Below, in pieces: positions 4,209-25,618 of a stretch of DNA of 25,840 bases (its first letter is position 1; the number at the start of each line of letters is the position of its first letter). The stretch lies in assembly GCA_022925895.1 (NCBI GenBank), contig JAKSYS010000782.1, forward strand, positions 1 through 25,840, given 5' to 3'. The stretch comes from Fragilaria crotonensis. Its lineage: Eukaryota > Bacillariophyta > Fragilariophyceae > Fragilariales > Fragilariaceae. Made by a program: the position numbers and the translations under genes. Below the pieces are notes generated by a model. That model was given only the letters and a program-made list of their open reading frames with translations. It was not told the DNA's origin and ran no database searches.

Positions 4209-7200
4209 TTACACCCCACGCCATCCCTCTCCTACTTCGGCATCGTTAGTGACGTAATCACTTTCCATAGTACACACGTTATCAATGGCGAAAGTCAGCT
4301 TGTCTCGCAAGATTTCCTTGGTTGAGTACGGAGGCAACGTCAGCGAGAAGAAACAGGTGCTCGCGCTTGGCAATGACGCGTCGCTGCTTCCGGAGTCTTT
4401 CTGAATCTTGAACGGTGCTTCGAAGTCGCTCTCCTTATTCGGCAAACGATTGCGGGCCCAGACAAACTGAAGAAACTTTTTACGATCGCGGTTGGTCATT
4501 TCTCGCAAAGCTTCCCAGAAGTTGTTTATAACGACATCGCCTTCATCATAACCTTCGTATTCAACCACGCGTTTCAAAAGATCCACGTCCACATCTGGAT
4601 TTCCACACAGAAAGGCGCGGAGTTCCTCGCCAGACAACAAAGGAAGCAGTTCTACAGGGAGCACATGAGACACGCCATCCACAAAGGAATTCAACATGCG
4701 TTGCTCCCACGACAGCAAAGCGCTAGTTTCTCCGGCGGCCACTTGCTTCCCTTCCAGCAAATCTACCTCTCTCAAGCATAGCATTTCCGAAGCGTTGTCC
4801 TCGACTATTGCATTCCAGACTATCGTCATTGGTAGAGGCAAATCCACAGGGATACCGTGCCTGCCAGCAGTACCAACCAATCGACCGAGGAAAATCAAAG
4901 AATCTTCCACCTCTCTAGAGCTCTCGTCGCGAGCCATGGTGAGGCTAGCGAAGCTCTTTCGAATGCGAAGTTCTTCTTCACATAAACCATCAGCGACTTC
5001 CATTCGGTACGACTGGCCACGCTCGCCACGAGCGAACATGAACAGCTCTCGCTCTTCCCCAATTTGAGTCATTTTGTTCGGAGTCGGATCCAACACGCCA
5101 AGGGCACCCTTCCCGTCTTCACCAAATTCAAGGACTTCCTGTATGGCGTCTGTGAAGACTTCTCGGTAAGGACCGGAATAGTCATTTACTCCTTCGCCGA
5201 TGAGCTTCACCTTGAAAGCTCGTTTTTGTCCGCCGTGCCCCTTTGCCACAAAACCACGTCGCAGAGCTGCTCCTCCCCAGCTTTTGTCTCGCTCTGGAGC
5301 TGGGCAAAGACGCTATGCTTTCGCTTCATTCGTAAGTCAGTCCCAGCCATTACCCTTCGAGCCTTCAGCCGATTCACACGAACCGTCCGAATTTCGCGGG
5401 GCAACTCATACTCGTCGTGCGAAAGTGGCGTAGGCGTTGCAGTCGCAAGAATGACGCTTTCCAAGTACTCGAGTTTCACGCTTGAGAAGATAAGTCCCTT
5501 CAACGAGCGCACACGAGAGGCGATCGACGGGACTTGAACCCAAAGGGCCATGCTGTCGGCCAACTTCCTGCGCCCGGCTCGTTCAACGGATGCTCCGTGT
5601 CCGCACAAGCCGCCAAGGATGGCTGTACCTTCCTGGCTAGGGCGGGCAGGTAGCCACGGCAATGCTTTCCGCACTCGCCTGTTGAGTGCACGAATTAGTG
5701 CCATTCTAGCCATCAGCGACTCTCCTGAAGGAAATCGTCCTTTTGCTGACGTCAGAACAGTCGCGGCAGCCTGGTTGGCTCCATCAGCAACAGCTCCTTC
5801 GATGGAGACCTTCAAGCCGCTCGACGAAGCAACCGCATAAGTGACAGCAGCAGCAACCTTCGGGAACGAACAATCGATCGCATCACTTTCTCCGGAGTAA
5901 TCAGCAATCGTGCTCACTAACGTGGTCACGATCGAGTCCGATTCCAGGATTGAGATCCCAGGAATCACACCCTCACTCGCCAGCCTACTAAATTCGTCCA
6001 GGGTAGCAATATTATACTCATCCAATGACGGATCATCGCCATCATCCGCTGGACGTGCAATTGACTTGAACTGATCGTACCATGCGATCGCAGCTTCCTC
6101 TGGAGTTCTGAAAGAAAGCTCATGCCTAACTTCTTCTTTAGAGCTGTCGTGGACGGGTTCAATGATTGATTCCTCTTTGCCGCCACGAATACGGCTGCTA
6201 ATCCAACCTTCACCGACCCCCTCGTAGCGGATTCGGTATCTGATGACTCCGCAAGAGTTCACACGTCGCTCTAACACGTCAAATGGTGGGATAATGGTGT
6301 TAGCTGGGATTGTTCCTAAGTTCGAAGACCGATCGATGATTTCAAGGTCGGACCGAACAACAGCTCCTCCCTCGTACACCACCTTGATTCCACCCGATGA
6401 CATGCATCGGAATCGATCGATTAAAGGTAGATCAACTCCACGGCCCTTCGCTTCGCCAACGATCTGAAGACTGTCTCCAACAACTTCACTCTCGTCCCAA
6501 AACCAGGCGCGACCACCTCCTGCGGTGAGGCTCCCGCCTTCACTCTTCTGAGACACAAGCCTATAGTAGAGGCGACACTGATGTGCACCCAGAATAACAG
6601 CTTCTTCTGCGAGTTCCAAAGGACGACCAACACTGCGCTTCACTACTACTCTGTCTCCGGAAAGGAGTGCGCGTCGAAGGCCGATCGCCGCACATGCAGC
6701 CGCGCAAGCGAGTGGCGAGCAGTCAAGCTCCACGTCAAGTCCAAAAGCAGCTAGGCGGTACTGACCACTGCTCCGAGTTGCCGTTGCGTACCATCGACGT
6801 GAATGCCATCTTCTATACTCATCGAACGCTTCTCGGACAAACCAATCAGGGAACTTCAGGCTCTGAGTATTGATGGCCATCGCCTCACGGCGACCATAGC
6901 CGTCGATCAACTCGTCCACAGCGAGTGCATTTTTCAAGGCGGTTGACCCCTCGATTCCACCGCAGGTTGTCCATTTAGTCGACATAGTCACCCTATCGCC
7001 TGGGTTTCTCAGGCCGATCACAGGCCATAGCGCCCGTGGTCGAACAACTCCGTGTGCATGATATCTCCCACCTCGTCCGCCCTCGATTCCGCTAGGTGCT
7101 CCTTGCCCAGCACCACCACTACCGCATCCGTCTGCATTAAAACCAAACGGCGATATGTTTTCAAATGCACATCCCAAATCATTCAAGATATGTTCACCAA

Positions 7201-10200
7201 ACTTCATGCCGTCATAAAAAAAGGAAACTCTTCCAGCATCGCAATCAAGCAACACTCCAACGGTGTCCTCGTTGTGGCAATGTGCGCCGTAAACCCTTTC
7301 CGCTCCAGCCGTATACGTAGCCCTGAAATTCACGAAGCCCCATCCCAACCAACGATTCAAACGAGGCGAATTTTCGTTGCCAAATGAACTTCGTCCACTG
7401 GAAGGAGCTGTATTAGGTTTTTCAGCCACACCTATGTACACGCTGCCGATGTCGGCTTGCTCAAGCTTGACTTCCCAGTAGTGCACTCCCCTAGTGAACC
7501 CAATGGACGCAAATGCACTACCTCGTCCGTCAGGTGATACGCAAGTCAACGTCCTCCCATCTCTCGAAAGCGTCATCGAGGACGCGTGATAGTCTCGGTC
7601 GAAGCTGATTGGGGGCGGAGACCTCGCAGTGTACTCGAGACAATTAGGAAGTTTAATAGAGGAATCCGGTCTCCGTCCTCTCAACAACTTCATTTCCATT
7701 GTGACTCGGACGCTGCTGCCATCACTCTTATTCCTCAGTCCATTCACGACATGACTTGTGCTCCCGAGGAGCTCCTGATAAACAGACATAAACGACGACT
7801 TTGCGTCAACTTCAGCCATATCTTTGCGCCTCGTGCTTCCCGTTGGCGAGAGCATAATCTCCGTTCCGGGAATAAAAGAGGGCTGTCCGAATCTAGCCTC
7901 CCAACCAGAATCCTTCGAACCAAAAAGCAAGTCGGTTTCCTTCAGGAGTACTGATCCGTCATCATAAAGTACACAATCCACCTTGACTCCGGCTCCGAAG
8001 TCAGGCCATTCTAGGACACCTTCGTGGTGCCATTCTCTTTCGTACCTTTCCACTTCTTTTGCCTTCCCTACCCGACGAAGACGAAGGAGGACGCTATACT
8101 TCCCAGAGCCAAATCCATGACGGGCAACGCATTGCTCAGCGCTCTCAGGTAGGGGGTGCCTTTTCCGAACACGAGTCCCCTTCTCGTTCACTTCGACATG
8201 GCAGATGTCAAAACGGCCGCCACCACCGCCATACCTATAGATCCCTTCTTCGCCCGTCAATTGCCACCTAACTTTCCTTGCCATAGCTGGCACGCCGTCC
8301 CACGGTTCGATCGAGAGTACGGTGCCAATTGGCAATTTAGGGTTAGCAATCTTTGTGCGCTTCTTCTTTTTGAAGGTGTCTGTCTTGACTTTGCTTTCCG
8401 AGGACGGCGCTGTCGCATCTTCATCATTGCTCTCAATCGATCCCAACGCATCTGTTTGCTCGTCGTTGCTTAAGTCACCAGTGTCGAGTTCAGACTCGGC
8501 TGGATCATCGCCAGCCTGTTCTTCTAACGCCTTTTTCTCTCTTTCTCGTTCAGATTTCTCACGTTCGTACTCTTTTTTCCCGTCCGCGTCTGAGTTCAAT
8601 CCTGGTCCTATATCGTCCCAATCAAGCCCCCGTGTGACGACACAACCCTCACGCAACATGGGAGGTCCTTCCCCCCCATCCATGAGAGAGCGCACAGCTG
8701 AACGCGATGGGATTACCCAGTCAACAGCCGTGCATTCAACGGTACCAACCCAAGTTTCCCACCCGGCGTCATTGGCTACCCAACCCTCGTCCCATTCCCA
8801 GCTTGGGGAAATGTTAGGTTTTATCATCTGTCCATCGCATGCGCTAGAATCCAGCGGCAGCGGCGTGGCTGCATCGACTTGCAATGGTCCCCATGTGAAT
8901 GATGACGAGGTTAGTTCTGCTTTGCGGACACTGGCCAGCAGTTCAATAAGAGACTGGACATAACGGGAACATACAGGGACCGCAGCTCTCTCAGCCCAAA
9001 CGCGTCTCAAAACGGTATCCTGTAAACGGGCGTAGAAGTTTGACACTGTCTTGAGTGAAAGGACTGCACGGGACAGCGCAGTAGGGCACTCATTAAGAAT
9101 GCCAGCTGCTGTTAGAGCGCAAACCATTCGCCATGGAGCCGACGCTGATAGAAGTCCGATACTCCAAGCTTGAAGGAGGTCTTCGAAAAGCTGTTGCTTG
9201 TCAGATACACATGATTGCACAGGACCACTAAGGAGGAGTCCAGTCAGGAAGCAGGTTAGTCTTGCGTCAGGTTGTTGTGCCTTCGCATTTTCCTCCTCCA
9301 ACACATCGCCAGCCCGCTTTGCATTAGAACCTGAGGTGTCCATGTCATCATCAGGGTTACCATTGCCTGATGTATTCGAATCGTCACCGGAATAGTCAAC
9401 AACAGCAAGTAACCGTACCGAGCGCCGAATAGTAGCGACTAAAACGGAACGCAGAGACTCAGACCTGCACAACGAGCTTTGAAGTCCACGTTGTAAAAAC
9501 ACCAGTGGACCGGCCCCTCCGTCCGCGCCAATCGACGATTCAGCACATCCAGCGAGACTTCGCCAAGTCTCTCTACCGAAGTCGTCATAACTTCCATCGC
9601 CAATAATAATCGTACTGAGTAACTGGGAAATGCCGGCGACAGGGACCAAAATAGACTCTTCTCCCCATTCTATCGAGGACAATCCCGGTCTGTCAGATTG
9701 CTGACTTTTCGATTGGTGTTCCGTACTTGAAATGCCCAAACCTAGCGCCTCGGCTGCGATTGCCATGGCACCAGCCTCACCCACCCAGCCGGCGGAACGA
9801 AGACTGACGCATGAGTCAATAACTCGCCAGAAACGAAGAGCAGCATCTACTTCCCCAATATCTTTGCTTTCAAAGAGCGAAAGCTCAAATTTTGTTCCCA
9901 ATGTAATAACCAAATGAAGAATGAACTTGCGAGAAAACAGGATCCCGAGGGAAAAACCTTCCTGGAGTGCATCGTGCGCAACTTCGTTTGAGACTGCGAC
10001 AAGGCTCTCTGACATGTTTGCTTTTGCGATGGTGTGATTCTCATTAGGAACCTTCGTGGAGGACCACCTCTTCTCCAATAGAAGAGACACACTACCGAGG
10101 GGCGACGAGTCCACGAACGAACCAGAAACAGTGGAGCTTTTGCCATTTCCTGTGTTTTTTGCATTTCGACTGGAACCAAGGTGCACGGATGCGTCTGACC

Positions 10201-13200
10201 CGTAATACCGATGTTGCCAAGCGAACAATTCGTGCCCATGCTCTCCGTCCGAAAAATCGCATAGGAAACGCTCCCGAATTCCCCGTCGGCCACCGATGAT
10301 GTCTTGGAGAGCAGAATTGCTTCCTTGTCAAGAACAACTTCGCGCTCCCTGACCGCCGACAAAATCGCTTCGCCCACGCCAACAAAACCAGCTGGAGGGG
10401 AGAAAGTAAATGGCTCTGATCCTTCCCCTCCGAGTATCAAGCGCAGTTTCTCTTTTCGGTTAAAGCTGACACAAGCGTATACTCCTCCACACGGCCTGAA
10501 ACCATCCCCCGAGAACGCAACCCCCATGCCAACTTCTTCGCCCTTCCCATTCAAGGTGAACGACACAATCTTCTCGTCCATGTCAACAAGGCATCCAACA
10601 ACATCACCTTCCTTCCATCGGCAGCCCCACTCTGTTGCGCTTGCATGCCAGCGATACCTTCGCCATCCATCAAATGCCCACGAGCTTGGGCCATCACCAC
10701 ACCCGTCACCTCTCTCGGCGTGGCAGTGGCCGGAGAAACTACCATCTGCCCATCCTATTTGCAAGCACCCTGCGGTTTCGAGGATCGCTTCATAGTACCA
10801 CTTTCCAGAGGTCAAGAGGACGCCCTTGGTTCCAACAGAAGAAAACCCACCAGCCGGAAGGCCAGAAATTGAGAGAGTTTTCGAGTTGATGATGGATCGC
10901 CCAGATATAAACCTGACTGGCGTGACTGAGCCGCACCACCCCCGCGGCTCTTCCACGCTTGTCGATGAAACGTCTCCGTCAGCGGCTGTCGCCACTGTGG
11001 CGCTGGCAGGCGCTTCTGCGGGTTGAGTTGGACTTTGTTCTCGTTCTGATACTCTGGCGACGTCGGACTCCTCGTCCGGTTGCGGTTGCTCTTCGTCATC
11101 ATCTTCTTCGTCCTCATCCTCGTCGAAGTCAGCACCATCATCGTCGTCTATTCCCTCGTCTTCTTCACTGAGTCGCACGCCGTTTGATAGAATCCAAGTC
11201 AACGCTTCGTCGACATTATTTTGCGTCGCAGCTAGGGCTTCCGCACACCATCGACTAGGGAAGCCCATCTCCAGTAACTGACGAAGCAAGTGGCTCGATC
11301 GTTCACTGCGATTACTGCGACGACGGGAAGCGCCGGCGGCCGAGCGTTGCATCACACGGTCGCGCTCGCGTTCTTCAGCCAGAAGCCGCTCCATGTCACC
11401 ACCTCTTTCAAGGCAAAAGTGTACGGCCGCCTCAATGTTTGTTCCCCCTGTACGTCGAAGCGCAAGCTCCGACCAGGACCGAGGCAACCCGAGCTCGAGC
11501 ATCTGTGCAATCGCTGCTTCGCGCAGGTGAGACGCGGCAGTAGCAGCTGCTTCGCTTTCTTCTTCGTCTTCGGTACTGTTTGAGCTCACCGAAGACTGCG
11601 AAGTCGCACGTCGTGAAGAGGGCGCATCGCCGCGAGAGGCGCGGCTCAGATTAGAGTCCTCGTGCCCGCTCGACGGCATTGTTGCGCTTGCTGCATCGGC
11701 GCATACTTCTTGTGGACCATCATTTTCCTCCACTGCTTCAGATTTCCTGGTTTGTCTAGCGTGGATTTCATTGGCTCGACGAAACCACGACTCTTCCACT
11801 GCAATTTCCAGTGTGGATCGTCTGACCTGAATTTCTGCAAGCATCGTAACAAAGTGAACGTATCTGCCTTCGTGAACTGGGAGGGATGCGAGGGACTCGA
11901 CTCCGGCTGGCTTCAATACCTTTGTCGAGAGGCATTCCTGTTTTCCCGCCAGGTGCAACAGTTCTGACAGTATCGCTCGGGATCCATCGTGGCTCTTGAA
12001 TTCATCGAGCAATCTGTCGTCAGAAAGTAAGACAATAGCAGCACGCAAGGTTAGGATGGAGGCATGCAAACATTGGATATGCTCTAGTTTGAATGTCCCG
12101 TCAACTGCAATTTCCTGAGAGGTGGTTGCAAAGAAAGCTAGCGCAGAGGGAAGCGAGGCATGAAGAAAGGTGATCACGGGGAAACTGGGACCAAGCACGA
12201 GAGGGATCTGCTCAGCTTTTGCTACGTCCGCGAGAGGAGAGCGAAGTGCTCTCACAGTAAGCGTGACTTTGGACAGCGCAGAGCTCAGATGCGGCTTATT
12301 TGAACGACGCCTTTCAACAAGAATAACCTCACACATTCCTGTTTTCGTATCGATGTTACTCATGACACCAGCTGCCGCTTCTGATCGACATAACCCAGCA
12401 ACTATGCCCTCCGTCCCTGTACCCACGACGTGGTGAGACGCCACCCCACCTGCAGCATTTGACGACCCCGAACCTGCGGAAGACTTGCTGCTGGGTGTCG
12501 ACTGTGCGTCTTGTGATAACGAGGCTGCCGCAGCAGGTTTGAGCAATACATGCGTCCCTGGACCGAGAGCAGTGATAGATCCCGCAAGAAAAGCAAGAAC
12601 ACCGAGCGAGAATGCATCCGAGGACGTAACATCTGCTCGGTCGGCAATTTTCCTCACTATCACCCTGTCGATAGCTTTTCTCCACTCATGGCAACCTGGA
12701 GAATACAATGAGCGCATACACGCAATGGATTCGCTTGCTACAAGCGATTCATCCCCGTGCAATGAATTCGCCTGCACATCATTGGCTTCTCCAACAATTT
12801 TGAACAGTCCTTCAACAACGCGGTCATCGGCAGTGGCCAGGGAAAGCAGAGTCGGCAAGAAACGAAGGATTCGGGCTCGGTAATGAGCAGGGATCCTCAA
12901 GTCGAAACTCCTCAAGACCACACCATCAACATCACCGCCTGGGGCCCTGTGAATCGAAAGTCCGATCGCGGAGAACATTACGTCCATCCAGTGTCCCAAA
13001 TTCACGAGAGCCTTCGAGGCCTCAGCGGACCACACGACACAGTGCATTACGTCAAGCCAACGCGAAACATACAGATCAAACGCTAGTCCGCCTGTGCTAG
13101 TCAAGCTTTCATAGTGTGACCCACTTGGGAACGGCGCCTTCCCCGACGACATGGCCTTGCTCCCAGCCTTCGTGGGTGTACTTGTTGTGCCGCCGACCGC

Positions 13201-16200
13201 GGCAAACATGCCCTTCTCGAACAAATGCGATAAACTTGGACGCAATGGTTTCGCAGCGGCTCGCTTGCGCTTTGCTTTCTCGCTCTGATTGCTGTCTGGC
13301 ATCGTGATATTGACCCAGGAGTTGTATTGATCGTCACCTTGGGCACCGAGGTAACGATCGAGACCTTCGCGGACAGCTGTCTCCATTAAAGGCACGACTT
13401 CCTCGACCTCATTCAGCAGGAGGCCAACACAGCCGCACAAGGCGGCGGAGATGCTGTCGCTGTTGGGATCAACATCTGATTGCCGAGACCACTGACATGT
13501 CTGATAGGTCAGTGTGTGAGACACTGACACAGCCGTCAGGACAACGGTACGCGCAACATCCCGCTGAATAAGTGCTCTCATCTCTGCGACCAGGAACTCG
13601 TTTTCCGTCTCATTTGAAGGCAGCCCTTCGCACTGCGTGGATCTAAGTGCTGCTCGGTTGCTTGATGAGATAACAGACAGAGAATCGAGGATTTGACTTC
13701 GAAGTACTACATTCTCAACATCGCTCGAAAGCATAGCAGTAGCGAACACAGGGAGAATTGAGAGTAGAGATGATTCACGGTCGACATTCGACGTGGTCGT
13801 GGAGGAACTTATTTGGCATAGAACTTCCCCGATATTCGCAACGATACTGTGCACTGAGCTCCGGATTTTATTCCTCAAAAACAGCCCCGCCCCCGATAAA
13901 CGCGCCATGTAGTGGTTCCCGTTGTCGATGTATCGGCGACCCGCCAGTCGAGATGTGGAAGTTTTTTTGCTCGCCAAGCCCCGACCCAGAAAGCGCGGAA
14001 TCGCAACAGAAGTGGATTCAAACGCTACGACCATCGCCGTGTTCAACTTATCACGAGGAGGGAGAACATCTTGAACCTCCGTCAACGCAACATACCGAAG
14101 AAAAGCGCGGCGCATCGACGCGGCGAATTCGTCTGCGAGGAGCTTGAGATCGTCCTGATGGTGCACCGCGGCAAAGAACAACGTGATTGTGCTTATAATG
14201 TCCTCACTGTCAATGGGATGATCGGTCGACGGTTGCAGTGATAGCAGGAACCGTGATACAGCGACAACGTGCTGACAGCGCATCACACCCCGCTCCTTCA
14301 TGCTCAATCCCTCAGGTCCATCTGACAACGCTGCGCGAACTTGACTATCCATGATACTCAAGGCACTGTTCCAGAGATTATCCAGGGCACCAAAGTGACC
14401 CCGAGAAAAAAGCTCACCAATGCCACTGTGATGAAAAAGTGATGCCATAACATGCAGTCTTGCCTCGGTATAATCATCTGGACAGAGGGAATGAAATGAA
14501 CCCCTCCTGCAATTATTCGGAGCTACGTTTCCATCCAGTTTCGCGATCTCAGCAACAAGAGACGAAGAGCTGTTTGTCTCCGGTGCAGTTGGAGGTGCAA
14601 CAAAAGCTGATGACGATAACACTGCGGCTGTGCGTCCTCGTCCGCTGTAGAGTTCTCGTAGAGAATCCAATGTTTTCTCCATTATATGACCGTCGGTATC
14701 TACGAATCCCTCACGGAATGGGGCACTTGTAAGAAACGAGAGACAGCGCACTTTCCTTTCTTCTTCTTCGTCACCTTCAGAACGTACTGCGTGGTCGCCA
14801 GCGGCATCGTTACCGAGGATCATAGCGAGGTGACCATGCGCTAACCGTAGGATGGCTTGACTTCGAGTAAAATCGTTATTCTCTGACGTCAGATCCGTCG
14901 AGTTCACTGGCTCCCGGTCCGATAGGAACAATCCCGCAATGTGTCCTGTCGTGCGATATTGCACATTTCGGTAGGTACCTTCGAATTTCATAGCATCGAG
15001 ACCAAGCCTAGCGGATACGATGCACGACGACGACGATTCTTCTGTCGCAGATGTGGTTCCCTCTTCGACCCCGTCGGTCCACTCCTCAACAAAATGAACT
15101 AAAGAACCGTAAACTGTGCCGGTAATGGAAACCAGTCCGTTCTTCGACTTTCCAGTAGTTCCAATCCCACTACCAACGAATCCGATGATACCTTCGTTGT
15201 CGCTAAGCTTGCTCTTGAAATTTACCACATATTCTTCAAATTCATTCACACCATTTCCTGAAGAGCCAGTCGCTCGTATCACCCATTTCCCCTCTTTCAT
15301 TGCGCTTGAGAACAAACTTTGCTGATCATTGATCACGGTGTCTAAGCGTGTGATGCATTCCGTCAATCTAGACAAGAGGTGTAGGGCGAACCGTGCTGAG
15401 AGCACTGGTATTGACGGAGGCAGCAAACACACAGCAGCGGCAATACTGGGTAGGATGGTATTCAAGGACAAGTTCCGATCACCAACGTCCCCCGAATCGA
15501 TGCTATCGATGATGTTGCCTAGAATGCTGTCAACGAACTCGATTGAACCCCAGGACAGCACGCTGTTGTGGTTACGAATCCTGGTCATTTGGCTGGAAAA
15601 CCCTTCAAGGCTCGATTTCGAAGAATGGTTCGGTCCTGGAAAGTATCCCGCTCCCCCAGCGAATTGTTCGATACCTACGTTGGTATGCTGTCCCCCAGAA
15701 CGTATGCCACTCTCCACCTTGAGAAGGGTGACCATATCATCGCGCTGATACAGCCCAACTGCTGGATACAGTTTTGCATCAAGAGGGAGACCTTCAAAAG
15801 CGATACCCCAATCCTCAAGAGTGCCGCCACTTGACGTCTGGCGCCGCGGGGATGACAGAGTTGGCGACAGCGGATCAAGCGAGAATGACCCAGCCGACGG
15901 ATTCACATCTTTCCACGTACTGAAACTTAGGGTACCAGCGTCTGTATCAAGCGTTACCACTATGATCGACCCTGTTCTGAACGTAGCACCATAGTCCCCA
16001 CGAATCTTCCGGCGGTCGTGCCAAAGCGCTTGTGTTCCGATGACGCCCCATCCATATTTGTCTCCGCCGACGTATGTTCGCACGCTCGCCTGGGCTGTAG
16101 CAACTCCCACAAATACATGCCCCCTCTCACAGCGATCCAAACGCACCGCCCACCGGTGAACGCCACTTTTCGGGTTGTAGTACGTAGACGAAACAACTGT

Positions 16201-19200
16201 TCCCCAAACTTTGGACGCCCGCTGGTGAGCCGACGATCCAGTCGAGGACGATGATGAATCAGCAGAATCCGACAAAATGGCGATGGAATCAGAGCACTTA
16301 GTTGAGTCCAGTTGAAGAGAAGACGACGGGCTTCCGCTTACACGCAGTGATTCTGACCCAGGCACGGACGCTGGTGAGCTGGCTGCTTCATCAGCCTCAA
16401 AGTGAGAGCACGCATAGAGACCATCCCAAAGGATACCGCGAACACAGCATCGGTGGCAAATCGCCATACTTAAACGTCGCAAGAACCGAAGACATGCCCC
16501 ACTTGCTTTGAGTGACGAAAAATACAGCAGCGTCACCAAGGAGCAAGAAAACTCAGATCTTTCGGAATCGGCCACATCAGTATCCCTTGCTAATGATCCT
16601 GCACTCTCCAACTCGGGATTGAAGCACAGTGGCCGGGGTACAACATGGTCAAGTAAATCTGTGACGCAGAATCGACGACAGAGAATGTCAAGCCGATACA
16701 ATTGAGATTCGTCCTCCGTCGTTGGTAAGGACGAGAGGGTGTCGAACGAACCGAAGTGTTGAACTGTCGATGCATTCGAAAAGCAATCCCTGACGAGGTT
16801 CCCGAGCAGCGCCTCACGATCCGAAGTCGATGAAGTCGTCAGGGCTGTGCATTCTCCCCACGCTGTCAATGATTCACAATACAATCGCAAGGGCATGAAT
16901 AAATCCTCTACCTCACCCTCGTCATCACCAGAAACGAGGGTTGGCAAAGAACGGAACTCGCTGACTGATAGCAGTATAGAAAGCGCAGCATCCAATTTTT
17001 CCAAAACGGACGTTGGAAGCAGTCGCGATATACGGCTAAAGAATGCCACACCGCCATCCTCCAACGCATGGCGATCCAACCGAACTGAAACACAAAATTG
17101 CATGAACGTTCGGAACGATTTCAACGCAAGTAACGTGCAGTAGGAATAAAGTTTGACTCGATTCTTCCAGTCATCGGTTTTTTTCTTTAGTGACTTGATA
17201 CGCATCGCAGCATCCCAACCTGCTGCTGCTGCCTTCCTCGACATACCTTTGCTTTCCAGAGATTCAGCTTGTGTAGACGTCGACCGCACCGACGCAGCCA
17301 AATTTCTACTGTCGGTAGGATAACGAAGTCTCATTGCGAGCGTCACTGCATCGTTGTCCTGTTCGTCATCATCGGATAAAGGAGTATCGTTTCCGTCATG
17401 ATCGTCACTCTCGGCAGCATGTGCTTCATCGTCCCTTGCACATTCCGCTGTTCCGCAGAGATGGCTTCTCTCAGGCCTTCTATGGCTTCCTTGCGGCTTT
17501 CGAAGCAGAGAACGACAGTGGCAACTAACAGTTGGAGGGAAGCGGCTGTGCGATTGAATTCGTCATCCATATCAACCTTCCTATCGTCAGAGAGTTGCGC
17601 TTCTGATCCGAACAACATGCATCCCATACCTCCTGGGACTGTCCCAGACTTGATACCGTTTTCGCCGCTTCGCTGCTTCCTTCCTTGTGCTAAATGGCCT
17701 GTTACTGCTCCCAGAGTGTTTTGAAGCAGACGAACGAGTGCCAGGGAAGAAGGAACTGTTCCAAATTTCGAAAGTGCAGAGGGATCAAGGCATGGGTGGA
17801 GGCTAGCGGCAGGGTCGCTTTTGTCATCAACATCGGTGACAGAATCCAACGAAGACCAGTACGGATAAATCGAAGGGGGCATAGGCAAGTCCGGCAGTGC
17901 ATCAAGGTCGTTCAAATTGGGATGATCGCTATCCGAAAAGTCAAATTTTGAGCGGCTGCTACGTCTTGACTCTGGCTTTGGTGTACTCAGCAGTATATCA
18001 TCGTCCTTGTCGTCTTCAGGTCCTTCGCTACTCTGAAAATTGCTTCCTGGTGCTTCGGCAAACCCAGTGTGATCAGACAAACTCATAGCCAGCGCCTGTC
18101 GAAGGATCGAGTCCCCAGCGTCCTCTTCATCATCATCGTCGTCGTCATCGTCGTCCTCGTCATCCTCGCCCTCGTGGTCGTCATCATCGTCGTCAACGAC
18201 TTCAGGACTTGGTTCGCTCTCGTCCTCTTCGTCCGATGAGGAGCTTTCATCATCAAGCTCAACATGAGGGGCGTTATCCTCGTGGGCGTACCTGTCTAAA
18301 TTATGATCGCTGTCGTTGTCATTTGTACTATCGCTGTCGGAGCTATCTTGCTCGAGGCCGCCAGCAGCAAGTCGCAAGGCCGCGCGATCAACGCCATCGG
18401 CAACAGCGGAAATGATCTGATTGAAGACTGTCGGTCTCAAGAGATCATTTCCAATGTTGTCATCGTCGTCGTCATCATCATCGTCGCAACCCTCGTCATC
18501 CTCTTCGTCTTCTTCTTCATCCGGATCATTGCCCTCGACAGCCTGATCCTCGTGATTCGGCAGTGTATCGTCTTCAACAACCACAGCACTCGGTTCGCTT
18601 GCATCGGTAGGAACAAACGGAGCAATTGGGATGGTGATATTATCGTCATCTTCGATCGAAGATCCAACTGTTTTCTGCTGCTTCCTGTCAACTCTGACCA
18701 CTTTAGCTTCTTGCTCAGCCCTAGCCAGAAGCCTAGCCTTCTGAACATCAATTCGATCCTCGTATGCTGAAGCTGCATCTCCAAGATACTTGAGGACCTT
18801 CTCGTCCAACGAAAAGGGGCCCTTCTCGACATTTGATCGCATCAAGCTCAAAATGGCACCCACTTGCAATGCCGGTACATCGCTAGGATCATGGCGTCGT
18901 TCGATTGCACGCGACTCTGCCTTCCCTTGAGACAGATCCGGTACCTCGGCACCATCGTGGTCCAATCCTGTTAAGACCGACAAAACTGCCAGCAACAGAC
19001 CGTGCAAGGCATCTTCCTTCAACCCGTCACAAACATCGCGACATACAGTACCGATGATGCTCTCTAAGATCCCATCATTCTTCGGGTTATCAATCTCATC
19101 GTTGTCAAACGCCTTGTGGTGCAAGACATTCTTGTGCAAATCCGATCCATACAGACTTTTCAAGTTCGCAACTAGTTGAGGGGGCGGCGTTGCTGCGGCC

Positions 19201-19609
19201 TTTTGTGATTTGATGGCGACAATCTTTTCGTGGTGCCTCAAGATGCGTTGCACGGTCGCTTCAGAGAAGGCATTCTCGGTGTCAGATGATCCATCCAAAT
19301 CTTTCAAACCGAAGGCATCCATGTACTTGTCAGAGGAATCAATCTCATATTCCGCCAAGGAGTGTGCTTGTTCTATCAAAGCTGACCTGGTAATCAAGTT
19401 GGGTCGGCTGGAAAGAGCATTCGGTACCAATTCATCCTGATGGCATCAATAAAGTAAGCAATATAGTACCAGCAGTATAAATCCTACAGCAGCCTCGAGA
19501 TATCACTCACCCTGATCCGATTAGCACGATAACTCGCTCCATTGGGCTCCGAGTCGATGAGCGTTTCGATTGCACGTTCACGACCTGACGGTAACTGCTC
19601 TCCTGACAT
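4209..19609 (-). CDS. Giant HECT-type E3 ubiquitin ligase (UIM, UBA, SPRY, MIB/HERC2, HECT)
   Basis: About 5,100 residues, coded 19511-19609 plus 4209-19436 after removing one intron and bridging three one-base frame breaks. It should take ubiquitin from an E2 as a thioester on its HECT cysteine and pass it to substrates. Visible in order: a UIM (DSILRQALAMSLSDH, about residues 474-489) after acidic tracts; SPRY 1 (nt about 15730-16215); two UBA domains (nt 11400-11530 with MLELGLPRSW, and 11170-11305 with LLEMGFPSRW); SPRY 2 (nt 10390-10930); a MIB/HERC2 domain split by a charged insert (nt about 8190-8665); SPRY 3 (nt 6965-7615); and C-terminal HECT (nt 4209 to about 5340) with GEGVNDYSGPYREVF and the catalytic Cys in ASTCFFSLTLPPYS (codon 4353-4355). 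I see no RCC1 repeats. UIM and UBA suggest ubiquitin-chain binding, SPRY suggests substrate binding. The ATG at 19609 follows an in-frame TGA. HERC1/HERC2-like is the nearest description; orthology is not established. The ligase assignment is near certain, the exact chain less so. Confidence 0.9.
5223..5227 (-). other. Frame break 3 of the ligase, in an A5 run (minus strand)
   Basis: Upstream of here the ligase is read in one frame (…CDVVLWQRGTADK) and downstream in another (RAFKVKLIGEGVNDYSG). Adding one A to the five-A run on the minus strand gives a continuous TADKKRAFKVKLIGEG, exactly at the start of the conserved HECT signature. An intron of suitable phase is not apparent. Sequencing or assembly error is the simplest explanation. 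Confidence 0.75.
8335..8590 (-). other. Charged low-complexity insert within the MIB/HERC2 domain
   Basis: This stretch codes for about 80 residues rich in Glu, Lys, Asp and Ser (for example EREKSEREREKKALEEQ and FKKKKRTK). It lies between the opening of the MIB/HERC2 fold (REGCVVTRGLDWDD) and its remainder (IGTVLSIEPWDG, VRWQLTGEEGIYRYG, RFDICHV). It is in frame and without stops, so it is probably a disordered loop with an NLS-like end. It shows no splice-site pattern that I would trust. Confidence 0.6.
10252..10256 (-). other. Frame break 2 of the ligase, in a T5 run (minus strand)
   Basis: The frame carrying UBA and SPRY 2 runs into unrelated residues after YAIF, while the next frame begins SDGEHGHELFAWQHRYYG. 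One additional T in the five-T run of the minus strand joins them as SVSYAIFSDGEHGHELF. The open frames overlap by about 380 nt here, so the exact repair site rests on which residues look conserved. A 53-nt GT-AG segment just upstream would also restore phase but removes plausible coding sequence. Confidence 0.7.
11085..11165. repeat. Acidic-tract microsatellite between UBA 2 and SPRY 2
   Basis: The plus strand is a degenerate run of TCATCTTCG/TCCTCG triplets coding on the minus strand for an Asp/Glu tract (DDDDGADFDEDEDEEDDDEE). It follows the second UBA domain and is probably a flexible acidic linker. Triplet runs like this change length easily. Confidence 0.7.
17433..17435 (-). other. Frame break 1 of the ligase, near a G3 run (minus strand)
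   Basis: The N-terminal frame reads ISAEQRNVQG and then drifts to a stop at 17343-17345. The next frame is already open here and reads DDEAHAAESDDHDGND into the large central frame. One extra G in the GGG run (plus-strand CCC 17433-17435) gives AEQRNVQGDDEAHAAESDD without interruption. The exact base is less certain than at the other two breaks, because the flanking sequence is acidic and poorly conserved. Confidence 0.6.
18115..18200. repeat. GAT/GAC triplet microsatellite coding for Asp/Glu tract before the UIM
   Basis: On the plus strand this is a run of CATCATCGTCGTCGTC-type triplets. On the minus strand it codes for long Asp stretches broken by Glu and Gly, immediately N-terminal to the UIM of the ligase. 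Mixed GAT and GAC codons show it is not a freshly expanded pure repeat. Confidence 0.8.
18455..18530. repeat. Second acidic triplet microsatellite in the ligase N-terminus
   Basis: A second GAT/GAC/GAG triplet run codes for DEEEDEEDDEGCDDDDDDDD on the minus strand, about 90 codons before the first tract described at the UIM. The two tracts give the ligase N-terminus a strongly negative charge. Confidence 0.75.
19437..19510 (-). other. 74-nt GT-AG intron of the ligase
   Basis: On the minus strand the donor GTGAGT starts at 19510 and the acceptor ATCAG ends at 19437. Splicing joins …SYRANRI-R to DELVPNALSS without a frame change in sense, whereas unspliced sequence meets an in-frame TGA at 19448-19446. 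The length is typical of diatom introns. Confidence 0.8.
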
Positions 19610-21763: not shown

Positions 21764-21905
21764 AGAATATAGAATACCAGTATGCCATACGAAAAATACC
21801 CACAAGCAGCACCATAAACTGACTCCGGCAGCCGCTGATCCCATACATTACTGGAGCGCTTAAAAGAGATATCTTCATTGCTCTGTCGTCTCCGAGGTTC
21901 ATGTG

Positions 21906-22445
21906 ATGAGGATAAGGACATTGGATTTCCTTTTGCTGGGCTGGTGCGCTTTTGGGGTAGAATCCTTCATTGCGAACCGCAAAATCCTTGTCAGTACAAC
22001 GAATATACCTCGATGTCCAAACGCTATTTGCAGCTCTGATGAGAATGATTTTGACATGGACGTCTTCAAGGCCCGCCTCCAGAATGTGGAGCAGAAACAA
22101 GTGTTCGACGGATACGCCTTCAGAGATCTCATTTTGCAGAAATGGGGAGAATGCTATGATGTCGATTTCAATCGTGTGGATTCATTTGGATTTCGTCAAA
22201 TTTATCTCAATGTGTATCCATTCAAAATGGGAGGACGAGGAAAATGGCGACACGAAACTGAACTCGACTATCTCATGCATCTACAAGCAATTGTGGAGAT
22301 CCTTGAGAGGTATGGGCAGCTTGATAGTGTTATCTATCAGATTCAAGAAACAAATAAAAAGCCCAAAATGGGAGCTCCGATTAAGGCAGTTCCAATCCGA
22401 CTTGATTTGACAAACGAGCAAATAACAAAAATCATGGGCTACTGA
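21906..22445 (+). CDS. Plastid-targeted DUF3067 family protein
   Basis: The protein has 179 residues. Residues 1-20 form a hydrophobic signal peptide (LDFLLLGWCAFGVES) with predicted cleavage just before Phe21 (VES|FIANRK), followed by a basic, Ser/Thr-containing stretch. This is the bipartite presequence with aromatic +1 used for diatom plastid import. The mature part (about 69-177) matches my memory of DUF3067, a small family found in cyanobacteria and plastid-bearing eukaryotes: FRDLILQKWGECYDVDF near the start, HETELDYLMHLQAIVEILERYGQ in the middle and PIRLDL near the end. The function of DUF3067 is unknown. Start at the ATG at 21906; a GTG one codon earlier is unlikely in a eukaryote. 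It is uninterrupted and converges on the WW gene, stop-to-stop gap 38 bp. The family call is from motif recognition and should be confirmed by a profile search. Confidence 0.85.
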   Translation: MRIRTLDFLLLGWCAFGVESFIANRKILVSTTNIPRCPNAICSSDENDFDMDVFKARLQNVEQKQVFDGYAFRDLILQKWGECYDVDFNRVDSFGFRQIYLNVYPFKMGGRGKWRHETELDYLMHLQAIVEILERYGQLDSVIYQIQETNKKPKMGAPIKAVPIRLDLTNEQITKIMGY

Positions 22446-22483: not shown

Positions 22484-25400
22484 TCATCGACAGTGAAGAA
22501 AACTTAATCTTCTGGCGGGGTCGTTTACGAATGACGCGTTTACCTGCGGCCGTCGTCGTTGGGCTTGAATCCTGCTCAGGTTTTCACTCGCAACGGCAAG
22601 CAAGGAAATTTGATCCAGCGCCTGCAGGGCGCAGATCGGATGTGGCGGGTTGAGAATTCTGCAACTCATCTTTGACAAGTGGGTTCCACCAGCACACGAC
22701 TCTCGTTGGTACCCTCCTCCAATGGTGCTGACAGTGCAGTCGCTGTTCGTGTCTATCACTTTCGGATGGAAAACACTTTGTGCACCTCCCACGATAGCAT
22801 CATCTTGAATCCTATCGTCAGCATGGTAGTCTTCCATCTTATTAATATCGTCCACAGGCGAATCAGCTACATCGTCAACACCAACGAAGCTGCCGACGGC
22901 GCTTGGCGTCGCAAGCTCAGATTCACCGTCGTTCTCGCTGCCACGTAGAGAAAGGATGGTCGAAAATGGTTGTCGTAGGTCGCCAACACCAGCGGGATGG
23001 AGAATAATTCGGTCGATCTCAATTCGAACTTCGCTGTCGTCCATTGGCGGAAAGTCGTCGTCGTCGTCAGCTAACTGGTCTCTGCTGTATGCCACCATTC
23101 CGTCGTCATCACCCTTCCTAGACGCTTTGATTTCAATCGCGTCGACTCTACCAGCACGCAAGTTTCTTGTTGCACAGTGCAGGGCCAAACTGCTGCCAGC
23201 ATCGTTCCTCAAGACGGTGGCGGCATCTGCTCTTGTTGAAAGGTCTTCATGAACCTCGGAAGAGTTGCCTTTTGCCTCATCTTGCGTTGACGTGTCGCGG
23301 CTCGATACATCATGATTCCGCTGCGTAATGGCTCGCATGTTCGGCAGCTGTAAAGGACCATCAACTCGGTCGCATTGATACAAAACTACGGTCTCGCCGT
23401 CTTTTCGCGTCCTCCTCTGCGCAAGATTGACGAGGACAAGGTTTGTGATTTCTTCGTCTGGCGACGTCATATTCAGTGCAACGACCTCTCCATATGAGTC
23501 ATCCACCGAGTATTCGTCGTCGTCCTCGTTGTCATATGATTTTGAGGCATTCGAGGCAGGGCTACCGCCAGACCTCGTGGTTATAGTTGCCTGCAAGATT
23601 GCGTCGGCGGTAACTTCTCCCTCGAGATCCTTAATAGATGATGCGCACACTGGTTTCTCGATCGTGGAATCAGAGCGACGCACGCTGAGATCACCCTGCT
23701 CGACAGTGATAGCACGTTTCACGACATCCCAAGGTAAATTCCCACCTGTTGTCGACGATCTCGTTGTACTTGTGACATCGTTATCACCGTGCTCGTCAGT
23801 CTGCGTCATCTTGCCGTATCCAGCGTTCTCCATGGAGGTTTTGTCTACATATTCAAGCGACGCAATCGAGTGTTGTGCACTCTGAAGACTATCATTTTCA
23901 TCAATTTCGAAAGAGTCAGTGTCTTCTTCATCAGTTCCACCGCACGCTGACGATAGTTCGAAAATTGACTCGATTGGCGACGCCTTAGCCGCACCAACCG
24001 GGTTGACAACAGGGCAATGCCACGTTGCTCCACGTTCAGGATGTATGTAGAATGGGCGATTCTTGCTCTTCGATATTCGCACCTCCCAGCCTGATGGAAG
24101 GGGTGCGTGACGAAACATTTCACCCTGGTACTCAAACAATATATTGTTCGCCGACGGCTCGGGGAGTCGGTCAATACGAATAACCATAGGCGCTGTCTTC
24201 GCGGAAGTATTGGCCTGCTTGGTATACTTCGAAGCCGGCAACGATTGGGTGCTAGGCGGCGATAACAAATCCTCGCTAGATTTGACTTCGGAAATTTCTC
24301 CGGCGAGGTCAGGGCTTCGAGTCTCCGCAGGAAGTAACTCGTCGCCAGTAATCGATCGACGAGAGCCTTTCAAAATATCTAGACACTTGCTCCGAGCAGC
24401 TTGAGTGGCTATCGAAATGTTTGTGTCCTTAGGACCAAAGTATTTCTTCGCGTTGATGTTGGATCGATAGGTCCGTGACGGAATCAGCAGAGAATCAATA
24501 CCAGTTTCCTCAGACACGATCTCCAATTCCTCCATTGTTCGCATGGTCAGCTCACTCGCGTCCACAGACTCCCAATCATCAAGGTGGTCGGCACCTATGG
24601 TACTTCCAAGAGGGAAACCACGACTCGTCGCGGGACGCTGACGACTGGAAAGCATCGCGGAGACAACCTCTGGATTGTCAAGTTTTGACGTTCGAAGTTT
24701 CTCGAGCTTAGACGATGTGAATGATGAGTCGTCTGTTCTCGTTGGATACTTGGGAGTCCCGTGTTGTGGAAGCAGCAATCCTGAGTGCTCCATACCAAGG
24801 GATTCCCCGGACGAACAGTCCATGGAATCCAAAGTCTTGGGCGACTCTTGAAGTTCACGACGAGGAGAATGCACCATTGCATTCAAGATGGCACTGGTTG
24901 AGGAGGTCCTCTTCGCAGCGCAATGAACGGGATCTTTGATTATCAAGGCGCGCTTAGCTGCAGAATCAATTGAGTGGTACGAAGTAGCTGTAACCCCTTC
25001 CATAAGTTTGCGCTTCGAGGAAAGTCTGTTCTTTGGGTGGCTGAGAAGTGGGTGAGACGCATCCTGATTGCCATTCAACTGTCTGTGATTTGCAAGAGCC
25101 CTAGGTGACTGATTTCTGGTTGGTTCAATCTTCGTAACAAACTCCTCCGCGTTTGACTCGACAAAAGCTTCCACGGAAACGGATGGGACTGTGCGATCTT
25201 GGTATAGGTTTGATCGGTGGATGGGACCCAGGGTTGGCTTTACGCTCGCACGCAGGTTTCGATCAGTGTCATGAAGGTCAAGATGACCCTTGTGGTGGTT
25301 CTGAGGATGCAAAGTGTCTGGTCTGGCTCGATTAGAAATTTTGGGTGTCTTGGTCGGTCCGTCAACGACAAAGATCTCCTTTTCTTTCTCGACGACGTTC

Positions 25401-25513
25401 GCATCTGAAAACTCCTTAGCACTATGGCTTCGACGTCGCAACGAAACAGAGGAGGAACTGGCAGAACCGTGTGTATTGGATCCGCGCACACGGCCGTGTC
25501 GTCTGAACTTCAT
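22484..25513 (-). CDS. Large mostly disordered WW-domain protein
   Basis: The protein has 1,009 residues from the ATG at 25513 (MKFRRHGRVRG…). One WW domain is clear at about residues 472-503: LPSGWEVRISKSKNRPFYIH, then GATWHCP, with both signature Trp residues, the Tyr and the closing Pro. WW domains bind proline-rich or phospho-Ser/Thr-Pro ligands. The rest is rich in Ser, Asp, Glu, Arg and Thr with basic segments near the N-terminus (SLRRRSHS, SKRKLMEG) and an acidic patch (ADDDDDFPPMDDSEV); it shows no catalytic domain, signal peptide or membrane segment that I can see. A nuclear or cytoplasmic adaptor or scaffold role is only an inference. The frame is uninterrupted over 3 kb, which contrasts with its broken neighbours. 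The frame is open further upstream to 25591 and may join a 5' exon. Confidence 0.85.
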   Translation of the reverse strand: MKFRRHGRVRGSNTHGSASSSSVSLRRRSHSAKEFSDANVVEKEKEIFVVDGPTKTPKISNRARPDTLHPQNHHKGHLDLHDTDRNLRASVKPTLGPIHRSNLYQDRTVPSVSVEAFVESNAEEFVTKIEPTRNQSPRALANHRQLNGNQDASHPLLSHPKNRLSSKRKLMEGVTATSYHSIDSAAKRALIIKDPVHCAAKRTSSTSAILNAMVHSPRRELQESPKTLDSMDCSSGESLGMEHSGLLLPQHGTPKYPTRTDDSSFTSSKLEKLRTSKLDNPEVVSAMLSSRQRPATSRGFPLGSTIGADHLDDWESVDASELTMRTMEELEIVSEETGIDSLLIPSRTYRSNINAKKYFGPKDTNISIATQAARSKCLDILKGSRRSITGDELLPAETRSPDLAGEISEVKSSEDLLSPPSTQSLPASKYTKQANTSAKTAPMVIRIDRLPEPSANNILFEYQGEMFRHAPLPSGWEVRISKSKNRPFYIHPERGATWHCPVVNPVGAAKASPIESIFELSSACGGTDEEDTDSFEIDENDSLQSAQHSIASLEYVDKTSMENAGYGKMTQTDEHGDNDVTSTTRSSTTGGNLPWDVVKRAITVEQGDLSVRRSDSTIEKPVCASSIKDLEGEVTADAILQATITTRSGGSPASNASKSYDNEDDDEYSVDDSYGEVVALNMTSPDEEITNLVLVNLAQRRTRKDGETVVLYQCDRVDGPLQLPNMRAITQRNHDVSSRDTSTQDEAKGNSSEVHEDLSTRADAATVLRNDAGSSLALHCATRNLRAGRVDAIEIKASRKGDDDGMVAYSRDQLADDDDDFPPMDDSEVRIEIDRIILHPAGVGDLRQPFSTILSLRGSENDGESELATPSAVGSFVGVDDVADSPVDDINKMEDYHADDRIQDDAIVGGAQSVFHPKVIDTNSDCTVSTIGGGYQRESCAGGTHLSKMSCRILNPPHPICALQALDQISLLAVASENLSRIQAQRRRPQVNASFVNDPARRLSFLHCR

Positions 25514-25549
25514 GGTAGATCTTGTGGTTGGAAGGATGGAATACCTGTC

Positions 25550-25618
25550 CTCAGAATATGTACTAGTAGAATATATCAAAAAGGGCGCCAACTACCCAAC
25601 TACGGAATCAAGACTCAC
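25550..25618 (-). other. Possible 69-nt intron in the 5' region of the WW gene
   Basis: On the minus strand a GTGAGT donor begins at 25618. A pyrimidine run (CCCTTTTTG) is followed by an acceptor-like TTCTGAG ending at 25550. Splicing keeps the same phase as the WW frame, and the unspliced path has an in-frame TAG. The GAG acceptor is unusual. It may be a leader intron or absent. Confidence 0.35.

Follow-up and report, generated by a model that had tools for sequence, protein, structure and literature searches.

Contig C759 of the diatom Fragilaria crotonensis (JAKSYS010000782.1), of which bases 1-25840 form the window analysed here, very probably carries a real gene for a large HECT ligase that is HERC-like in build without RCC1 repeats. 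The assembly comprises 62.1 Mb in 881 contigs. We consider it likely that the stretch from 19609 down to 4209 on the minus strand constitutes a single nuclear gene, predicted from its reading frames to encode a giant E3 ubiquitin ligase of the HECT type, about 5,100 residues long, and we infer that it is read as a single transcript. Four long open frames (P0005, P0001, P0002 and P0003; 700, 2571, 1706 and 367 residues) follow one another in tandem on this strand in a single order, just as the original prediction had read them, and the predicted chain comes to about 5,108 residues over the full length of the stretch, in agreement with the size anticipated there. The domains, their order, the size of the open stretch, the cysteine and the count of zero RCC1 matches are read directly from the gene. 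Its features, from the N-terminal end onwards, are as follows.

19511..19609, minus strand: first coding exon, 33 codons with an ATG at 19609, from direct reading; a start or exon further upstream is possible
19437..19510, minus strand: intron of 74 bases, GT-AG, phase 0, joining exon 1 to P0005, from direct reading
17343..19445, minus strand: open frame P0005, 700 residues, containing acidic stretches as well as the UIM-like motif
18069..18113, minus strand: weak UIM-like motif (Pfam UIM E value 0.037, 14.3 bits, in a hand-picked 42-residue piece)
9847..17562, minus strand: open frame P0001, 2571 residues, with SPRY1, UBA1, UBA2 and SPRY2
15916..16158, minus strand: SPRY1 (40.5 bits genome-wide, 50.6 bits as a piece)
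11398..11526, minus strand: UBA1, approximate bounds set by eye (UBA and UBA_7 both give two stretches in P0001)
11143..11292, minus strand: UBA2, the best UBA_7 stretch
10426..10803, minus strand: SPRY2, ryanodine-receptor-like (80.3 bits; best PDB match RyR2, 87 bits)
5207..10327, minus strand: open frame P0002, 1706 residues, with the MIB/HERC2 domain and SPRY3
8195..8647, minus strand: putative MIB/HERC2 domain, split by a charged insertion (31.0 bits with the insertion excised, 26.5 unexcised)
8339..8572, minus strand: insertion of 78 residues within the MIB/HERC2 domain, 47% D/E/K/R by composition
7199..7486, minus strand: SPRY3 (40.8 bits; best PDB matches TRIM67 and TRIM9)
4209..5312, minus strand: open frame P0003, 367 residues, with the HECT domain and the stop
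4713..5216, minus strand: divergent HECT N-lobe, placed mostly by eye and position (HECTD3 aligns from residue 33, 5.0 bits)
4263..4703, minus strand: C-terminal half of HECT, profile positions 156-304 (142.5 bits at this place genome-wide)
4353..4355, minus strand: presumed catalytic cysteine codon, in S-T-C-F, aligned with the S-T-C / H-T-C of HECTD3 and HUWE1

In P0003, the Pfam HECT profile gave 154.5 bits (E value 6.4e-45) against a curated cut-off of 23.9 bits; the match is strong in the C-terminal half, and the first 200 residues of the frame scored just 13.0 bits (E 0.082). With a C-terminal HECT domain and a predicted catalytic cysteine in its C-lobe, the encoded protein is, on its predicted sequence, a member of the HECT E3 ligases. 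Among the 59 PDB sequences compared at E up to 1e-10, a set that does not include HERC1, HERC2, HECTD4, HECTD1, TRIP12 or UBR5, the C-lobe was best matched by human HECTD3 (91.3 bits), followed by HUWE1 (78.8 bits). A HECT phylogeny with HERC1, HERC2, HECTD1, HECTD4 and HUWE1 had been proposed as a check; the tree that was built has HECTD3 and HUWE1 as its reference rows and does not contain HERC1, HERC2, HECTD1 or HECTD4. Over 158 C-lobe columns and seven rows (this gene, HECTD3, HUWE1 and four other HECTs of the genome, four further loci having been dropped), it joins the gene to HECTD3 with support of 82/94, below the starred level.

We take KIAA0614 to be HECTD4. In the available portion of Marin 2010, KIAA0614, HECTD3 and the large HERCs are grouped together (PMC2837046), and the HECT domain of the F. 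crotonensis gene, judged by its likeness to HECTD3, probably belongs to this HECTD3/HECTD4/large-HERC group. A ligase of the HUWE1 type, with UBA and HECT, that had gained SPRY and MIB domains would be in keeping with the second rank of HUWE1 among the PDB matches, with its UBA and with a C-lobe identity of 37.6%. However, HECTD3 outscores HUWE1, the tree places the gene with HECTD3, another HECT of the same genome (C631) is much nearer to HUWE1 (49.7%), and no WWE family is listed in the frames, so that we regard such an origin as very improbable.

Upstream of the HECT domain, P0001 matched the Pfam families UBA_7 with 64.6 bits and UBA with 40 bits (curated cut-offs of 27 and 22.4 bits), each in two stretches. 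In the Pfam scan of the frames, SPRY was found in two stretches of P0001 and again in P0002, and three of the seven SPRY matches listed genome-wide lie on this contig (80.3, 40.8 and 40.5 bits; cut-off 26.3 bits). From the domain set named in the original prediction, the two UBA domains, the three SPRY domains and HECT therefore stand above the Pfam cut-offs, while MIB/HERC2 stays below its own and the UIM is weak. Likewise, the ubiquitin-binding N-terminus that had been proposed retains the weak UIM, whereas the UBA pair sits mid-chain. Besides, a locus on C448 (L002:375-2126) was considered as a paralogue of P0001 and rejected: it is a single 583-residue frame with an SDE2 domain, a SPRY domain and an SDE2 C-terminal domain, and its 32% match is the common SPRY within an SDE2 gene.

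The MIB/HERC2 domain (PF06701) required closer treatment. When the insertion was excised, an intervention of our own choice, the match covered profile positions 1-65 of 66 with an E value of 2.3e-7 (31.0 bits); with 16 insertion residues retained the score was 27.3 bits, and the unexcised 174-residue piece still gave 26.5 bits (E 6.1e-6) over profile positions 22-65. None of six shuffled controls matched. Pfam did not list the domain for the whole 1706-residue P0002 (E up to 1), for C759 when the genome was scanned, or for two short pieces scanned by themselves, and a PDB search with the MIB piece, run to E 10, gave no match. The likely cause of its absence from these Pfam listings is the 78-residue insertion. 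We take the MIB/HERC2 domain as real but divergent. The lone genome-wide MIB_HERC2 match, on C437 (L001:326-1993), was set aside: it is a rhodanese protein (UPF0176-type) with a C-terminal match of 23.2 bits, under the cut-off.

No RCC1 repeat was found in the frames of the gene by Pfam scan at E up to 1, and none of the 48 RCC1 matches listed genome-wide lies on C759, which bears out the earlier remark that such repeats are not seen here. A separate gene on C101 holds RCC1 repeats and HECT together in a 1300-residue frame, indicating that the search does detect genes of this kind in this genome. According to the available part of PMC6692442, RCC1-like domains define the HERCs, and a small HERC consists of one RCC1-like domain plus HECT; the latter combination is not present in this gene. 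As far as its predicted domains go, the protein is built like a HERC but lacks the defining domain of that family.

An orthologue of HERC1 or HERC2 whose RCC1 propellers were lost in this lineage would explain the large size, the SPRY domains (as in HERC1), the MIB/HERC2 domain (as in HERC2) and a HECT nearest to HECTD3, which Marin 2010 puts with the large HERCs. Nevertheless, RCC1, WD40, Cyt-b5 and DOC are unlisted in all frames at E up to 1, and UBA is given for neither human large HERC in the table of human HECT ligases in PMC6457168, as far as that source is available; we therefore think such an orthologue unlikely. For HERC1, this table lists two RCC1-like domains (RLDs), SPRY, WD40 and HECT. 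Thus, where HERC1-type proteins had been said to carry SPRY and UBA, the SPRY half agrees with this table and the UBA half does not.

The same table, with the same limit on its coverage, gives MIB for HERC2 and HECTD1 and UBA for HUWE1 and UBR5, and none of the human HECT ligases in it combines UBA, SPRY and MIB. The arrangement is therefore new relative to that table; the gene combines familiar domains in a new way and does not amount to a novel type of machinery. In length (about 5,000 residues), SPRY and HECT the protein resembles HERC1, but the two RLDs and WD40 of HERC1 are not found here, and HERC1 does not share the two UBA domains and MIB of this gene. HERC2 is similar in its roughly 5,000 residues, MIB and HECT, whereas its three RLDs, Cyt-b5, ZnF and DOC are not listed in this gene. 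HUWE1 is likewise a giant with UBA and HECT, yet it has WWE, BH3, UBM and ARM, none of which is listed here, and the present gene has three SPRY domains and MIB instead. HECTD3, the best solved-structure match to the C-lobe and the neighbour in the tree, is an 864-residue PDB chain for which DOC and HECT are listed in that table, without UBA, SPRY or MIB.

Within the F. crotonensis genome, the duplicate contigs C660 (23000-32900, L005) and C37 (L011/L013) carry another gene in which SPRY precedes HECT on the same strand, so the pairing of SPRY with HECT is not unique to this gene here. Unlike the gene on C759, it has a distant HECT (26.9% C-lobe identity) and extra stretches, and it is absent among the genome matches of P0001 and P0002. 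In the literature, HECT genes have been described as expanded in oomycetes after their divergence from diatoms (PMC2926784), and a kelp transcript has been labelled HECTD3 (PMC6742357); the available parts of both papers do not describe a SPRY/UBA/MIB/HECT architecture. It was not found either in a literature search at the level of titles and abstract openings, a result that does not establish that the architecture is unpublished. Searches for relatives covered collections of viruses and prokaryotes, which are uninformative on spread among diatoms. With a few exact peptide patterns, no relatives of P0001 or P0002 were found in viral contigs, nor any of P0002 in genome contigs, and none of P0003 was found in phages.

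Whether the four frames form one gene depends on the three places at which the frame changes (near 17.45, at 10.25-10.15 and at 5.28-5.22 kb). These are the three breaks noted originally, and the ordinary-looking 74-base intron at 19510-19437 comes in addition; the breaks were left unmended in all analyses. Neighbouring frames overlap by 220 (P0005/P0001), 481 (P0001/P0002) and 106 bases (P0002/P0003), with no gaps between them. Codon log-odds were computed per frame, trained on 4,483 codons from the gene itself. Near 17.45 kb the top frame by codon use passes cleanly to the next without a gap, and an intron at this first break was set aside on that ground. The switch near 10.2 kb is blurred across about 80 bases, and P0002 scores highest among the three frames at all sampled points from 10135 to 9790, spanning the P0001 stop at 9847. 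At the third break, the P0002 and P0003 frames are both slightly above zero after 5.31 kb until about 5.23 kb.

Base-calling or assembly error typically leaves indels without substitutions. Precisely this is seen between C660 and C37, where two copies of the same other HECT gene differ by 18 gaps (23 gap bases) and 0 substitutions over 3,610 aligned positions. Three breaks per 15 kb fall within this indel rate, suggesting that the three frame breaks are most likely assembly indels, with introns at breaks 2 and 3 as the less probable reading. As for the HECT end, the first methionine of P0003 comes at or after residue 81, past the start of the HECTD3 alignment at residue 33 (5.0 bits only), and P0003 is thus unlikely to begin a gene of its own. 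The link across the third break would accordingly be carried by the frame overlap and this late first methionine.

Several observations weigh against the picture drawn so far. In the second break (about 10.23-10.15 kb) codon scores are weak in every frame, and before the third the score of the P0002 frame is negative between about 5.39 and 5.31 kb; given this weakness, a splice or a gene boundary at either place is still compatible with the codon test. The end of P0002 gave no HECT match to Pfam (E up to 10) or to PDB chains, which runs counter to the expectation that the HECT domain bridges the third break, and no domain match spans any of the breaks. Moreover, every MIB/HERC2 score is below the 33.5-bit cut-off. 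The UIM (PF02809) is weak and only suggestive, scoring 14.3 bits where the cut-off is 21 bits, and is unlisted in the scan of the whole P0005 at E up to 10. Concerning the family assignment, the seven-row tree has two other rows flagged as long and zero starred branches, and raw C-lobe identity is slightly higher to HUWE1 (37.6%) than to HECTD3 (35.3%).

The unbridged breaks and the weak codon scores at the second and third of them would also suit a set of at least two adjacent genes, such as a UBA/SPRY adaptor (P0005 and P0001) and a MIB-SPRY-HECT ligase (P0002 and P0003) split near 10.2 kb. Against such a split, the 481-base overlap of P0001 and P0002 leaves no intergenic gap, the P0002 frame stays the best of the three past the P0001 stop, and the duplicate contigs reveal an indel-rich assembly. 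We give adjacent genes little credence and keep to a single gene for the giant ligase.

AlphaFold2 without alignment returned mean predicted local distance difference test scores of 37.8 and 36.2 for two stretches with no assigned domain, 14818-15570 and 5828-6655, and these models were not used. Adjoining the gene, a 1035-residue frame at 22484-25591 (minus strand) has a WW-like match under the cut-off (20.3 vs 26.9 bits), and a 193-residue frame at 21864-22445 (plus strand) matches DUF3067 with 82 bits. Elsewhere in the genome, RCC1 matches are equal or nearly equal in score between C353 and C829 and between C58 and C416, a sign that these pairs may be duplicate contigs. On C37, a single 817-residue frame (L013:6493-8946) combines a Mad3/BUB1 homology region with a protein kinase domain. 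The silicon-transporter family had 19 genome matches (best E 4e-193), 18 of them above the cut-off, and in one of 14 control genomes a match under the cut-off was obtained. Silicon transporters are known from some other algae too. Three consecutive matches share a 1456-residue frame at C97:29749-33762, and two lie in a 1008-residue frame at C771:21664-24330. Light-harvesting proteins gave 61 genome matches, the best being by far nearest in the PDB to the fucoxanthin-chlorophyll proteins FCPI-7 and Lhcr11 (270.8 and 269.7 bits; next 185.7), which we take to be from a diatom. Together, the silicon-transporter and light-harvesting matches point most probably to a diatom genome and thereby support the stramenopile setting mentioned at the outset.

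The roles of SPRY, MIB, UBA and HECT are established for those families, and by analogy the SPRY and MIB/HERC2 modules of this protein may be its substrate-binding parts. The UBA pair, perhaps together with the UIM, would bind ubiquitin already present on the substrate and favour chain extension, and the C-terminal HECT domain would accept ubiquitin from an E2 onto the cysteine encoded at 4355-4353 and then hand it over. The substrates, the chain type and each of these steps are carried over from the domain families, and chain extension on already marked substrates appears the likeliest use of tandem UBA domains in such a ligase. We tentatively raise the possibility of a distinct, undescribed diatom (or stramenopile) class of giant HECT ligases, sister to HECTD3, HECTD4 and the large HERCs, in which tandem UBA and three SPRY domains replace the RCC1 propellers and which extends chains on ubiquitinated substrates. 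If such a class were widespread, large-HERC-like ligases could exist without RCC1 propellers, and it would offer a way of testing if the RCC1 domains are an ancestral feature or a later gain. In diatoms, the analysis singles out this one giant ligase as a candidate enzyme for ubiquitin chains.

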